Origin: a virus | Virus record (IMG/VR): IMGVR_UViG_3300044539_000252 | Coordinates: 1-25,762 of that record | Direction: 5' to 3' (one strand) | Length of the DNA: 25,762 nucleotides | Part shown: one piece after another, positions 4,484 through 25,762 of the stretch | Position numbering within the stretch: the stretch's first letter is position 1 | Layout of the letters: each line of letters starts with the position of its first letter | The notes under the pieces: model-generated | The model's database searches: none | The model's input: the letters and a program-made list of their open reading frames with translations, nothing else | What the model was told of the DNA's origin: nothing | Position numbers and translations under genes: made by a program

Positions 4484-6055
4484 CTATCTATAAAACGGTG
4501 AACTCGAAACCTCAACTGATGGCATAGTTAAATCCATGGTTAAGGCCACAGCAATAGCTAAAGAGTCGGCGTAGTCATCATGAGCATGTGCTTCGTCTGG
4601 TGCTTTGGCTAAAAAATTAGGGCCCTGGAACTTAGTCTCTAGATCTGTCATCTGCTGGTAGAACCGCTTCCAGGTACGTAGGCGGCGAGTTTTTGCGTGA
4701 GCAGGCCACCCAACCATACGTCGGTCAATAAGTGCCTTAAGGTGCTTCCACCGCTTTGACTGTTCGGGTTGGCTACTGCCAATTGAATAAACCTCAGATT
4801 TTGGTAAAAGCAGTTTAAGTCGTTGAGCTACTGCGTCACCAACACCGTTAGCGTCTACGCCAACACCTAGCACATCGTAACTACTTAAGAACTGAACAAT
4901 TTGAAAATATTGATCTTCCCAATCGTCACCTTGGATCTCTAACCAATTAAGAACGCGGTGGTCAAAGTAACCAAACTCATCTGGGCGATCCCAATCTACC
5001 CACACAACAGTAACTACAGTTGAGTCAAGTTTTCGTGCGGGGTCGATTCCAACAACGACAGGTGTTCGGTGCCAGGCTTTAACAGTTTCTTGGGAGGTGT
5101 CGCCGAGCTCGTCCATAATAGTTGATGTAACGAACATTCCGCGCTCCAACAACCATTTGCATGAGTACGACATCTGGAACTCATCGGAATCCTCCCCTAC
5201 ACGAAGCATTTCTTTTTTAATAAACTTACCGTAGTTCTCGTTAACCTTAGCTACATCTCGCCAGTCCCACTCAAAGTGGTTCTGTTTAGAACGTGCGCCT
5301 GTCTGTCTACGTTTGTTTAACTGAATAGAACGATAAAAATTATTCTTGTGCGTAGTCGGGGTACCCGTTTTAACCATGGTTCCTGAGTAGTACGCAAGCA
5401 TTGGGGAGATGGACTTTGACACTACAAAGTCATCCGCCTCTTGACACTCATCAATAACGATAAGGTGGAAAGATTTAGATTCAATCTTTGCGCGAGGGTT
5501 AGCTGTCATCATCATTAGAGATGAGCCAGAGTTCTTAAGTTTAATCTGCCGTGTAACGCCTGGAACTTTTCCTAGGGAGTCGTCAATTTCAGGATCACCC
5601 AAGATCTCTAGTGCGCGCTCTGATGTAAGACGGTTTACTGTACGACCAAATAGTGTTTCTACCTGACCCTCAACAGGAGCAAACATACCGATCCACACAC
5701 CATTAGCAAACTTGCCTAATAGGTCTGGGTACATCTTTGCTAAACGTGGGAGTAGCACCATTAGCGCGGCTACTGTGTTGGCAATGGTTTCTGACTTGCC
5801 TGACTGACGTGCGGCAAGCGCGGTAATTTCTTCACCATCGTTAATGATTACAGACTCAATAACTCTGCGGGCTAGAGGCATTTGATAAGGGTGTAGCTCA
5901 TGGCCTACAAGCGCAGTTTGAAACTGGATACAACGATCTACAAGTTTGTTAACAAATTCTTTTGAGAGCTCATCAAGCTCTTCAATTTCTTCTTCGGGCG
6001 CAAGGTCTTCTTCTTCATCAGGAAAAAACTCTTCTTCATCCATTGCTGTGTCCAT
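4484..6055 (-). CDS. terL: Terminase large subunit (ATPase and nuclease)
   Basis: Packaging motor that translocates DNA into the procapsid and cuts concatemers. In the 523-residue product, the Walker A-like P-loop AARQSGKSET is near residues 81-90, and Walker B LIVIDEC near 198-204 carries the Asp-Glu pair. The RNase H-like nuclease has three acidic positions: GIDPA near 337, GVDAN near 400 and the final HDDYADS near 492-498. The N-terminus is very acidic. An in-frame TTG at 6082 exists, but it lies inside a terminator hairpin, whereas ATG 6055 has AGGG about 8 bases upstream, so 6055 is preferred. No small terminase subunit was identified. Confidence 0.95.
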   Translation of the reverse strand: MDTAMDEEEFFPDEEEDLAPEEEIEELDELSKEFVNKLVDRCIQFQTALVGHELHPYQMPLARRVIESVIINDGEEITALAARQSGKSETIANTVAALMVLLPRLAKMYPDLLGKFANGVWIGMFAPVEGQVETLFGRTVNRLTSERALEILGDPEIDDSLGKVPGVTRQIKLKNSGSSLMMMTANPRAKIESKSFHLIVIDECQEADDFVVSKSISPMLAYYSGTMVKTGTPTTHKNNFYRSIQLNKRRQTGARSKQNHFEWDWRDVAKVNENYGKFIKKEMLRVGEDSDEFQMSYSCKWLLERGMFVTSTIMDELGDTSQETVKAWHRTPVVVGIDPARKLDSTVVTVVWVDWDRPDEFGYFDHRVLNWLEIQGDDWEDQYFQIVQFLSSYDVLGVGVDANGVGDAVAQRLKLLLPKSEVYSIGSSQPEQSKRWKHLKALIDRRMVGWPAHAKTRRLRTWKRFYQQMTDLETKFQGPNFLAKAPDEAHAHDDYADSLAIAVALTMDLTMPSVEVSSSPFYR

Positions 6056-6079
6056 TGTGTTCCCTAGTCTAGGTGAAAA

Positions 6080-6114
6080 CAAAAAGCCTGGGCGTTTAAA
6101 CCCAGGACTTTTTG
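6080..6114 (-). terminator. Intrinsic terminator upstream of the terminase gene
   Basis: Read leftward, CAAAAAG-t-CCTGGG pairs with CCCAGG-CTTTTTG around a TTTAAACG loop and is followed by TTTT. This closes the small-gene unit ending at 6178 just before the terminase start. Because the hairpin and its tail overlap the in-frame TTG at 6082, it also argues for the ATG start at 6055. U-runs on both sides make it potentially bidirectional. Confidence 0.75.
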
Positions 6115-6162
6115 ATTGCCATCACGGGGGAGAGAAGAGAGGCAAGAGAAGCTTAGCACAAT

Positions 6163-6174
6163 TGTCGACAAATT
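6163..6174 (-). promoter_or_regulatory. Putative operator AATTTGTCGACA, copy 1
   Basis: On the leftward strand this 12-mer is identical to the copy at 24586-24597, and its core TTGTCGACAA is a 10-bp perfect palindrome here. It lies in the 122-base gap in front of terminase, next to a TGCTAAGCT sequence that could be an extended -10 for a leftward promoter. Two identical copies in two control regions suggest a phage regulator site. This is inference from repeat and position. Confidence 0.5.
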
Positions 6175-8475: not shown

Positions 8476-8988
8476 ATGCTTAATATCAGAAAACGTACAG
8501 CAGTAGTAGCAACTGTTTTTATCTTTTTGGGAAACTGCCCACCAGCAATGGCGGAGCCAGTAGTTCAAGAAGAAGTAGTTACAGTTGTGAGCCCGTTAGA
8601 TTCATTTAAAGAAGCTAAGGTTCTTACCAAAGCAGAATTAAAGGATTTATTAAAAGCGGTTGGTTTTGAGGGAAACGCTCTCAAGACCGCTTGGGCAGTT
8701 GCTATGAAAGAATCAAATGGTCGTCCATTAGCGCATAACGGAAATAGTGGCACTGGTGACAACTCATACGGAGTCTTTCAAATTAATATGATTGGAACCC
8801 TAGGGAACGCCCGACGGGATAAGTTCAACCTAGAGTCTAACGTAGACCTCTTTGACCCAGTTACAAACGCTGAGATAGCGTTTCATATGACTAACGGTGG
8901 AAAAGATTGGTCTTCCTGGAAAATATATCCAGATCAAACAAATGGAGCTAGATATGAGAGTTTTCTAAAACAATTCCCAAAGAACTAA
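8476..8988 (+). CDS. Secreted lysozyme/transglycosylase-like muralytic enzyme
   Basis: 170 residues and the only rightward gene between the window start and 24758. Residues 1-26 form a signal peptide (basic LNIRKR, hydrophobic core, AMA cleavage site). The mature part resembles the lysozyme-like/SLT fold: AWAVAMKESNGRPLAHN places candidate catalytic Glu79, and GDNSYGVFQINM at 95-105 is the typical substrate-cleft motif of transglycosylases. Domain length (about 115 residues) fits compact actinobacterial secreted lysozyme-like enzymes. GAGAGGAG lies 6 bases before the ATG. It has its own promoter, leader hairpin and terminator. It could be a lysis enzyme, an infection-stage wall hydrolase or a host-derived moron. 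Confidence 0.82.
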   Translation: MLNIRKRTAVVATVFIFLGNCPPAMAEPVVQEEVVTVVSPLDSFKEAKVLTKAELKDLLKAVGFEGNALKTAWAVAMKESNGRPLAHNGNSGTGDNSYGVFQINMIGTLGNARRDKFNLESNVDLFDPVTNAEIAFHMTNGGKDWSSWKIYPDQTNGARYESFLKQFPKN

Positions 8989-23675: not shown

Positions 23676-23803
23676 TAATGAGCGCGGGCCTTGTTATTCG
23701 CGCAGGTGTAGCAGATACGCTCCACCAGATCTATTACGCCTAAAACAAAGGCATCTACGCCTGAGTAGACAATGTTTTCGTTAGTACCACATTCTGTACA
23801 CAT
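23675..23803 (-). CDS. Zinc-ribbon mini-protein, 42 residues
   Basis: ATG 23803 shares a base with the upstream TAA, and its own TAA shares a base with the next ATG, so it fills the gap exactly. The product is MCTECGTNENIVYSGVDAFV, then LGVIDLVERICYTCANNKAR-AH: CTEC and CYTC form a CxxC-x28-CxxC zinc ribbon. Function unknown; similar two-knuckle mini-proteins recur in this genome. Confidence 0.7.
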   Translation of the reverse strand: MCTECGTNENIVYSGVDAFVLGVIDLVERICYTCANNKARAH

Positions 23804-24480
23804 TATGACTTTTCAAATCCTGGTAGGGTTTCTTGCTTAAATGCAGGGCCTTGAGGAGATTCTTGTTTGAAAGAGCCTACTCTGCTCTCTTGCCTGTTCT
23901 TACGTAAGTTACTCATTACGCCACGAATAGTTCTAGACCCCTCCTCTATAGCTGAAGGAGGTAACATCGTTGTTTCATTTCCTGGTGGGCGATAGCCTTT
24001 ATTGTTTGCCATATCGTCTACCCAGTTGGTAGCATTATTTCCGTACTCGCGTAGATCTTCTGGCAAGTCATTAGGTCGATAATTTACATCGTGCTTTCCG
24101 CCAAGTAACTTATCGGCAACTCTTGCACTATCAGCTGTCAACGCGTGATCTGGGATCGGATTTACTCCATAACGCTTTTTTGACTCCGCAACTGCCATGC
24201 CAAGTGTTGTACCCAGATCTATCTCTGGAGAGTTATCTCCTCGGTATAAGCCTTTAATTCTTGGAGGTTCCCAATTAAAAAGCTCACCTTGCTTTGCGTT
24301 CTCTGGAAAAGGGTTGTAATGGCTTTCGTTATTAGTTCGGTACCCACCAGCTAACCGCGCTGCTGAGGTTCCATTTTGAGAGTCTACTCCGCCACGTAAA
24401 CCAAACCACTTATCAACATAGCCAGGATCTAAGTTCTCGCGTCCAAAACCTACTGTAAAGGCTTCTCTGTTACGGGGCAT
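23803..24480 (-). CDS. First gene of the leftward operon; hypothetical, with QxxL and LPGF motifs
   Basis: 225 residues, hydrophilic with many Asn, Pro and Arg. Segments include FGLRGGVDSQNGTSAARLAG, QGELFNWEPPRIKGLYRGDN, SKKRYGVNPIPDHALTADSA, and the C-terminal KQETLPGFEKS. It resembles the 291-residue protein at 21789-22664 in motif order. QGELF and QETLPGF both look like short linear binding motifs. No enzymatic domain is seen. The ATG is exactly where the upstream -10 (CATAAT, 24487-24492) predicts transcription to begin, so the mRNA may be leaderless. Confidence 0.72.
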   Translation of the reverse strand: MPRNREAFTVGFGRENLDPGYVDKWFGLRGGVDSQNGTSAARLAGGYRTNNESHYNPFPENAKQGELFNWEPPRIKGLYRGDNSPEIDLGTTLGMAVAESKKRYGVNPIPDHALTADSARVADKLLGGKHDVNYRPNDLPEDLREYGNNATNWVDDMANNKGYRPPGNETTMLPPSAIEEGSRTIRGVMSNLRKNRQESRVGSFKQESPQGPAFKQETLPGFEKS

Positions 24481-24486
24481 GAAGCA

Positions 24487-24492
24487 ATTATG
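24487..24492 (-). promoter_or_regulatory. Leftward -10 element giving a leaderless transcript
   Basis: CATAAT is followed by six bases and then the ATG at 24480, so the predicted transcription start coincides with the A of ATG. No ribosome-binding site is present. The -35 region is poor. Leaderless genes are common in Actinobacteria. The rest of 24498-24585 contains the third TTTAGCCTG copy (about 24514-24522) and nothing else that I can name. Confidence 0.5.
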
Positions 24493-24585
24493 GCAACCGC
24501 GTTAAACATATACAGGCTAAAGCAAAAAAGGCTACTGCCTCAGAAATCTCCCTTCACCTATGGGGATTGCCTGGTGGGGTATGTT

Positions 24586-24597
24586 AATTTGTCGACA
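24586..24597 (+). promoter_or_regulatory. Putative operator AATTTGTCGACA, copy 2
   Basis: Identical to the element at 6163-6174 (there on the leftward strand). The core TGTCGACA is palindromic. It lies 16 bases from the LexA box in the divergent control region, so a phage regulator may act next to the host SOS repressor. Confidence 0.5.
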
Positions 24598-24613
24598 TTT
24601 AACCTAGGGGGGG

Positions 24614-24629
24614 TCGAACATATGTTCGA
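24614..24629. promoter_or_regulatory. LexA (SOS) box
   Basis: TCGAACATATGTTCGA is a 16-bp perfect palindrome that exactly matches the SOS box used by Actinobacteria and Bacillus-type Gram-positives (CGAAC-N4-GTTCG). It lies in the intergenic region between the leftward operon starting at 24480 and the rightward promoter at 24681-24708. Host LexA bound here could repress one or both directions until DNA damage. Confidence 0.85.
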
Positions 24630-24680
24630 GCGCGAGATACAAGGCTGAAAACTATTCATCTGCCGTTCACCTTGCGTTAG

Positions 24681-24708
24681 TTGACTATTAACTATGCGCG
24701 TGTATTGT
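24681..24708 (+). promoter_or_regulatory. Rightward sigma-70-type promoter
   Basis: TTGACT (24681-24686) and TATTGT (24703-24708) with a 16-base spacer. The predicted start near 24715 gives a leader with two small hairpins, CTAGTC/GACTAG (24718-24734) and GTAGT/ACTAC (24741-24754); the second exposes TAGG, the ribosome-binding site, in its loop. It drives the four-gene rightward operon. Confidence 0.65.
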
Positions 24709-24757
24709 ACGCATTACCTAGTCACCGCGACTAGCGATTAGTAGTTAGGACTACATC

Positions 24758-25171
24758 ATGCCGAACGATCGCCTTTACCTTGTGGCTGGCTCACTAGGTT
24801 ACCTGCTAAACGAGGCTCTGCCTTCATTGGCAACCCCATTAGAGATCGATCTCGACCCTGAGCGCGAGTGCGTTCACGCCACCGTATCCATGGGTAATGG
24901 TACGGGATTCTCTCTCTACTTCATGGTAGAGAACAAGTCTATCAAAAGCACACTTCAACAATACGGTGAGGATATTGGCGCACCTGATAAGACCCTCACC
25001 ATTACCGAGTTCATGAGCGATAGCACATGGGCGCACTTTGCTTGCGATTACATCACCAGCGAGGTCAATCACTTTCTTGCTATGAACTCATTTAGCACAC
25101 GCAATAAGCCTACGGGCGACGATCTTGTAAAGTCGCAAGCCGAGTCTGAGCAAGGGTTCTCCCTAGCATGA
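24758..25171 (+). CDS. First gene of the rightward operon, unknown function
   Basis: 137 residues, acidic, no recognised family: MPNDRLYLVAGSLGYLLNEA, then a beta-rich part (ECVHATVSMGNGTGFSLYFM) and a helical part (FMSDSTWAHFACDYITSEVN), ending polar. It is compact and probably globular. AGGA lies about 8 bases before the ATG. GC content and codon choice (more GCG, CGC) differ from the leftward genes. As the first gene after an SOS-box-containing control region it could be an early-expressed gene, but that is inference. Confidence 0.72.
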   Translation: MPNDRLYLVAGSLGYLLNEALPSLATPLEIDLDPERECVHATVSMGNGTGFSLYFMVENKSIKSTLQQYGEDIGAPDKTLTITEFMSDSTWAHFACDYITSEVNHFLAMNSFSTRNKPTGDDLVKSQAESEQGFSLA

Positions 25172-25732: not shown

Positions 25733-25762
25733 CGCATGCCGTAAAGCTGAAAGATGTTTGTG

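Follow-up and report, generated by a model that had tools for sequence, protein, structure and literature searches.

A predicted host LexA operator in a variable slot between the divergent gene blocks of apparently lytic actinophages

LexA represses genes bearing its site until RecA is activated. Phages of the CTX, 186 Tum and SPC32H type are temperate, and their switches work by way of an antirepressor or a repressor pair. Host LexA controls an antirepressor, a co-repressor or a lytic gene in these switches, as summarised in PMC9437464, which also describes host master-regulator sites in intergenic control regions for CtrA-dependent lytic deferment in Alphaproteobacteria phages and for Spo0A in virulent phi29, as well as substantial turnover of CtrA sites among close phage relatives. 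In Bacillus phage GIL01, host LexA boxes in the phage promoter P1 together with the phage protein gp7 tie phage transcription to the SOS response (PMC4551915). LexA sites in Streptomyces venezuelae belong to the same box family as the site described here (TCGAAC...), and the regulon comprises host genes and a few phage-like genes (PMC9380542). Among the open-licence PMC papers listed, none was recognised as dealing with such sites in an actinophage that appears to be lytic, and the GIL01 work came closest.

The locus described here resembles GIL01 in that a LexA box, in this case predicted from sequence, lies within a phage control region. GIL01 is a temperate tectivirus with phage co-factors, whereas the family here consists of ~100-kb tailed actinophages with one box per slot and no co-factor known. 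Integrase (PF00589) was detected in 0 of 20 family records, which may be fragments, and GIL01 itself does not integrate (PMC9700832). Unlike the CTX, 186 Tum and SPC32H-type switches, no antirepressor or repressor pair was seen among the families searched (PF00589 and PF00717). The Streptomyces venezuelae sites belong to host genes and a few phage-like genes, and the present one to the control region of a free phage.

The window, which is the whole stretch of DNA analysed (25,762 nucleotides, the entire record G000), contains a gap of 277 bp (24481-24757) that separates a leftward block of structural genes from a rightward block of small genes, and the placement of the site between divergent operons given in the earlier note is borne out by the leftward and rightward ORFs on either side. 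Family scans of the genes flanking the control region gave nothing useful. The features referred to below are as follows.

4484-6082, minus strand: large terminase subunit, the query for finding relatives, 54% identical to the terminase of Streptomyces phage BRock
23436-23675, minus strand: 79-aa gene, orthologues of which mark the control region in relatives
23803-24480, minus strand: 225-aa ORF, first gene of the leftward (late/structural) block, no family match
24487-24492, minus strand: possible -10 element CATAAT, picked by eye, 6 nt ahead of the start codon (ATG) of the first leftward ORF (a putative leaderless start)
24530-24539, minus strand: GGCAGTAGCC motif, which recurs upstream of 'late'-block genes in relatives
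24570-24579, plus strand: CCTGGTGGGG, kept by most relatives and reading GCC(A/G)CCAGG on the minus strand
24589-24597, no strand: TTGTCGACA element adjoining the core, where relatives often carry TTATCCACA/TGTGGATAA
24598-24613, minus strand: conserved core, on this strand CCCCCCC-TA-GGTTAAA
24614-24629, no strand: predicted LexA/SOS box TCGAACATATGTTCGA, a perfect 16-bp palindrome and the occupant of a variable operator slot
24681-24708, plus strand: candidate promoter TTGACT-16-TATTGT for the rightward (early) genes, clear of the box and ~50 bp downstream of it
24758-25171, plus strand: 137-aa ORF, first gene of the rightward (early) block, no family match

Several further observations were made on the layout of the window. 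An SLT_3 transglycosylase-like gene (8476-8988) is on the plus strand inside the otherwise leftward structural block. A second copy of TTGTCGACA is located upstream of the terminase at about 6162-6172 and is kept before the terminase in several relatives, where it is followed by GTGNTAGACTA and is perhaps a late promoter. A GGCAGTAGCC-like motif was observed just upstream of late-block genes in L129, L131, L134 and L157, in some cases with TAGAAT and an ATG immediately after it. A hairpin, CTAGTC-ACCGC-GACTAG (24718-24734), is located in the leader of the first rightward gene, and at its place the sister phage G001 has a different, still paired stem and other relatives have other hairpins as judged by eye. 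The end of the window (25756-25762) and the starts of L130 and L145 stop at GTTTGTG/CACAAAC, part of a repeated early-region CCAACACAAAC element which is probably the reason assemblies break there.

The window is a 25.8-kb piece of a phage family whose longest records are 95-100 kb. At least 80 viral loci with close terminases were found among the matches listed, several of these relatives being 80-100 kb long, and the window is therefore a fragment from which a missing repressor gene means little. The 95-kb relative G350 has a gene block of ~85 kb in one direction and a small opposite block. A Pfam scan of 68 of its ORFs (best 25 of 32 and best 25 of 26 families in two listings) included matches to DNA polymerase A, DnaB helicase, a RecA homologue, B12-dependent ribonucleotide reductase, T4-like tail tube, tail sheath and pyrimidine-dimer glycosylase. 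This relative (L339-L343) codes its own RecA homologue and the glycosylase as well as HSP20 and a proteasome-subunit-like protein. WhiB is an actinobacterial protein, and its gene was present in 19 of 25 family records versus 1 of 14 control genomes, a frequency that indicates actinobacterial hosts. The family of which the window is a fragment is one of ~100-kb contractile-tailed, WhiB-coding actinophages.

Peptidase_S24 (PF00717), the LexA/CI-type repressor family, was detected in 0 of 25 family records, several of them 54-100 kb in length, although these may be fragments. The observation in the earlier note that no phage repressor gene was visible nearby agrees with this count, while for the window itself it carries little weight. 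With neither integrase nor an S24 repressor detected in records that are possibly fragments, the family is apparently lytic. The terminase had no match in bacterial genome contigs nor in 296 Nanopelagicales genomes, so no prophage was seen there and host assignment by this route was abandoned. The host order of the window phage is inferred to be Nanopelagicales (freshwater Actinobacteria) from the actinobacterial affinity of the family, a G+C content of ~45% and comparison with reported freshwater actinophages (PMC10202952, PMC6802176).

The 16-mer was the only match within three mismatches in the window, where shuffled sequence gave 0.07 expected, and it fits the TCGAACNNNNGTTCGA-like actinobacterial LexA (SOS) box. 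Boxes were identified upstream of lexA in all 32 Nanopelagicales loci examined, with one or two boxes each within 260 bp upstream. These loci comprised 30 listed out of 110 genomes in which lexA was found (121 Nanopelagicales genomes searched) and two from another search, and their boxes were of the type TCGAAC(A/G)NNTGTTC(G/T)A, accepted with at most one mismatch to TCGAACNNNNGTTCGA. A weight matrix built from the 58 boxes in these promoters scored the window box at 26.5 bits, compared to 19.5-26.2 for the host training sites, 12.5 for the next best window position and a highest score of 16.0 in 60 Markov windows. The exact 16-mer was found at no fewer than 118 loci in bacterial genomes, 94 of them actinobacterial by title among the matches listed, including a Ca. 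Nanopelagicales genome. The two statements made at the outset, that the palindrome is an exact actinobacterial SOS box and that a chance match is very unlikely, both held, and judged by its letters the palindrome is an actinobacterial LexA box rather than a chance match.

A total of 26 homologous control regions were readable, the window included, and were located by means of 79-aa gene orthologues together with two patterns for the core in which the slot plays no part. Contigs with the orthologue in which the core was absent, cut off or unrecognised were dropped from this count (G015, G022, G030, L140, L142, L144, L147, L153 and L154; the six L contigs had no score of 14 or above), as was L357, which matches the pattern without the family gene, and second copies of counted records were left out (L139, L148, L155, L348, L349, L351, L354, L355 and L358). 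The 26 regions share an order of elements consisting of the core (C6, 2-6 bases, TTAA), followed as a rule by a TTGTCGACA or TTATCCACA-type element, by CCAGG and by GGCAGTAGCC, with the core reading CCCCCC-N2-6-TTAA and a G-run replacing the C-run in 3 of 26.

A LexA box was present in the same slot beside a C6-N4-TTAA core in six of the 26 contigs (the window, G029, L350, L353, L359 and L360), corresponding to four of 22 distinct slot sequences. The same box at the same place in related phages, which had been proposed as a check, was thus seen in part, in six regions counting the window, the relatives having otherwise different flanks, while the other 20 slots contained other sequence. The number of chance boxes expected in the slots (26 x 75 bp) is ~0.01. 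Only five matches of at least 20 bits occurred in 597,162 family bases, of which two were the window and G029 slot sites and at least two lay in genes, so two of five fell in a slot of ~75 bp per genome and predicted sites for the host regulator are concentrated in the control region. Boxes inside ORFs were not counted (G014, two in G015, G344/G345 and G013/G339/G340).

The G029, L350 and L360 slots are identical, and L350, L359 and L360 share the G029 clade by slot sequence; the six carriers are therefore not independent and the independent count is below six. G029 was first noticed through its box. L353, picked up by a core pattern blind to the slot sequence, offers the best independent example of a box at the homologous slot; its box (TCGAACAGATGTTCGA) directly adjoins the core as in the window, in a region with conserved CHAP, HNH and DUF6321 genes and the divergent 79-aa orthologue. 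A tree of the HNH protein for counting box gains and losses was unresolved, with no starred branch, and was set aside. Elsewhere, the 80-kb relative G349 has a LexA-like box of 22.5 bits (G349:C1:15161-15176, L331 1662-1677) that overlaps a stop codon and is followed by a hairpin. Other viral contigs carry repeated exact LexA boxes, namely one contig (L038 and L005) with three at 35-bp spacing and a fourth, and the L033 contig with two at 31-bp spacing.

A position at or just behind the -10 element is the classical operator position, where LexA usually represses. Five of the six carriers (G029, L350, L353, L359 and L360) have a perfect TATAAT just upstream of the box, with a TG extension in four. 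The box starts at the last base of the TG-extended TATAAT in G029, L350, L359 and L360, where this element reads toward the large gene block, while in L353 the TATAAT is 10 bases before the box. The window box is overlapped by no sigma70-like promoter, and the TATAAT of the other carriers is absent there. The candidate at 24681-24708 was the one promoter-like site found in the window control region, where 1.5 were expected from shuffles. LexA could instead act positively, or as a roadblock or architectural factor between the divergent operons, and not as an SOS-relieved promoter repressor. This is unlikely given the box position relative to TATAAT in the five other carriers, at which repression is the usual outcome, although the sole promoter-like site in the window is downstream of the box. 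The Streptomyces study likewise reports genes with LexA sites going down after damage (PMC9380542), which would suit such a role.

The box-free slots contain other recurring sequences. CTCAG/CTGAG pentamers were found in 11 of 20 box-free regions and in none of the six box carriers. As a candidate host operator the spaced CTCAG/CTGAG repeat was rejected, as it was not clearly enriched in 61 host-order genomes (21 versus 14 control places). TTATCCACA/TGTGGATAA, which we take to be the DnaA-box consensus, occurred in the slot in eight of the 20 box-free regions and none of the six carriers, and next to the core in others. This distribution (8 of 26 slots overall) and the conserved G/C-run core would be consistent with a control region that is primarily the phage replication origin, the LexA box being one of several protein sites. 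We regard an origin as quite unlikely, since TTATCCACA recurs at several early intergenic regions, suggesting a promoter element, and the cumulative GC skew of the 95-kb relative, a weak test, has no turning point at the control region (~3.8 kb). The early intergenic regions with TTATCCACA were seen in L155, L157 and L158, and in L157 they were accompanied by GTTCACC-N4-GTTCAC-like direct repeats, which resemble the actinobacterial PHO box.

The nearest sister phage, G001, is ~95.5% identical to the window over a 6-kb block spanning the control region and has the same flanking genes. There was no box within three mismatches in its first 9,642 bases (L003), and a different sequence is located exactly at the box position, where the G001 slot has another inverted repeat, TCGGCT...AGCCGA. 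Lack of conservation in relatives with conserved flanking genes had been named as evidence against the site, and it applies in part, to G001 and to the 20 regions with something else in the slot. The CTCAG-type slots in other relatives (G013, L143 and L146) suggest that the box may be the newer state in the window. This near-identical pair, sharply different at the slot, constitutes a natural experiment on operator exchange.

The inverted repeats of the window and G001 pair also prompted a terminator or hairpin reading, in which the slot needs only an inverted repeat or RNA structure and the palindrome is a chance or historical match without LexA function. Folding of the 26 slots revealed no conserved stable stem and this reading was rejected; folding was unremarkable in every slot (z from -1.6 to +1.5), no stem is common to all and the window stretch scored -1.4 and -1.7 on the two strands. 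In the box-like slots the bases that LexA contacts are preserved exactly and the variation falls in the centre; the boxes of G029 and L359 are distinguished by two central, unconstrained positions. A match without LexA function is accordingly very improbable, even with the G001 repeat at the same place. Binding by a phage-coded LexA-like regulator is more improbable still: GIL01 is reported to code a LexA homologue (PMC6182141), but S24 domains were undetected in the family records described above, in a search that, among helix-turn-helix repressors, covered the S24 type, and the lexA operator in the likely host order has the same box.

Weighed against these alternatives, the box probably serves the host's own LexA as an operator, sited in the master control region between the divergent gene blocks of a ~100-kb actinophage that appears to be lytic. 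It is likely functional as one of several interchangeable occupants of the slot and not as a fixed switch. On entry into an undamaged cell, LexA would bind the slot and keep one of the phage's two divergent transcription programmes in check. Damage to host or phage DNA, from sunlight or from the infection itself, would activate RecA, which would lead to LexA self-cleavage and the start of the held-back programme. In the relatives bearing TATAAT, LexA would be repressing the large 'late' block, which spans ~85 kb in the 95-kb relative, since the TATAAT there reads that way and the box is at or just after it. The outcome would be the deferment or timing of lytic infection, which fits better than a lysogeny switch because neither integrase nor an S24 repressor was detected. 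In close relatives the LexA box would have been swapped for different operator-like sequence, making SOS control a strain-level trait.

Host-regulator sites in intergenic control regions with turnover among close relatives are shared with the CtrA and Spo0A phages. Unlike in those systems, the sensor here would be LexA and hence DNA damage, the hosts are probably Actinobacteria and a single slot beside a conserved core is exchanged. More tentatively, the slot could be a plug-in sensor site holding operators for different regulators within one lytic actinophage family (LexA, DnaA-box-like and CTCAG-repeat), so that one and the same master promoter region would answer to different host states, and near-identical strains would exchange this wiring.

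Co-option of host LexA is known in temperate phages and here appears in an apparently lytic actinophage family. Should LexA gate this region, host DNA damage would govern whether an apparently lytic phage, infecting bacteria that are abundant in sunlit fresh water, holds back or starts its programme, with no lysogeny involved. Lytic deferment by a host regulator would then become testable outside the Alphaproteobacteria. These seemingly purely lytic viruses may therefore time their gene expression by the stress state of the host.
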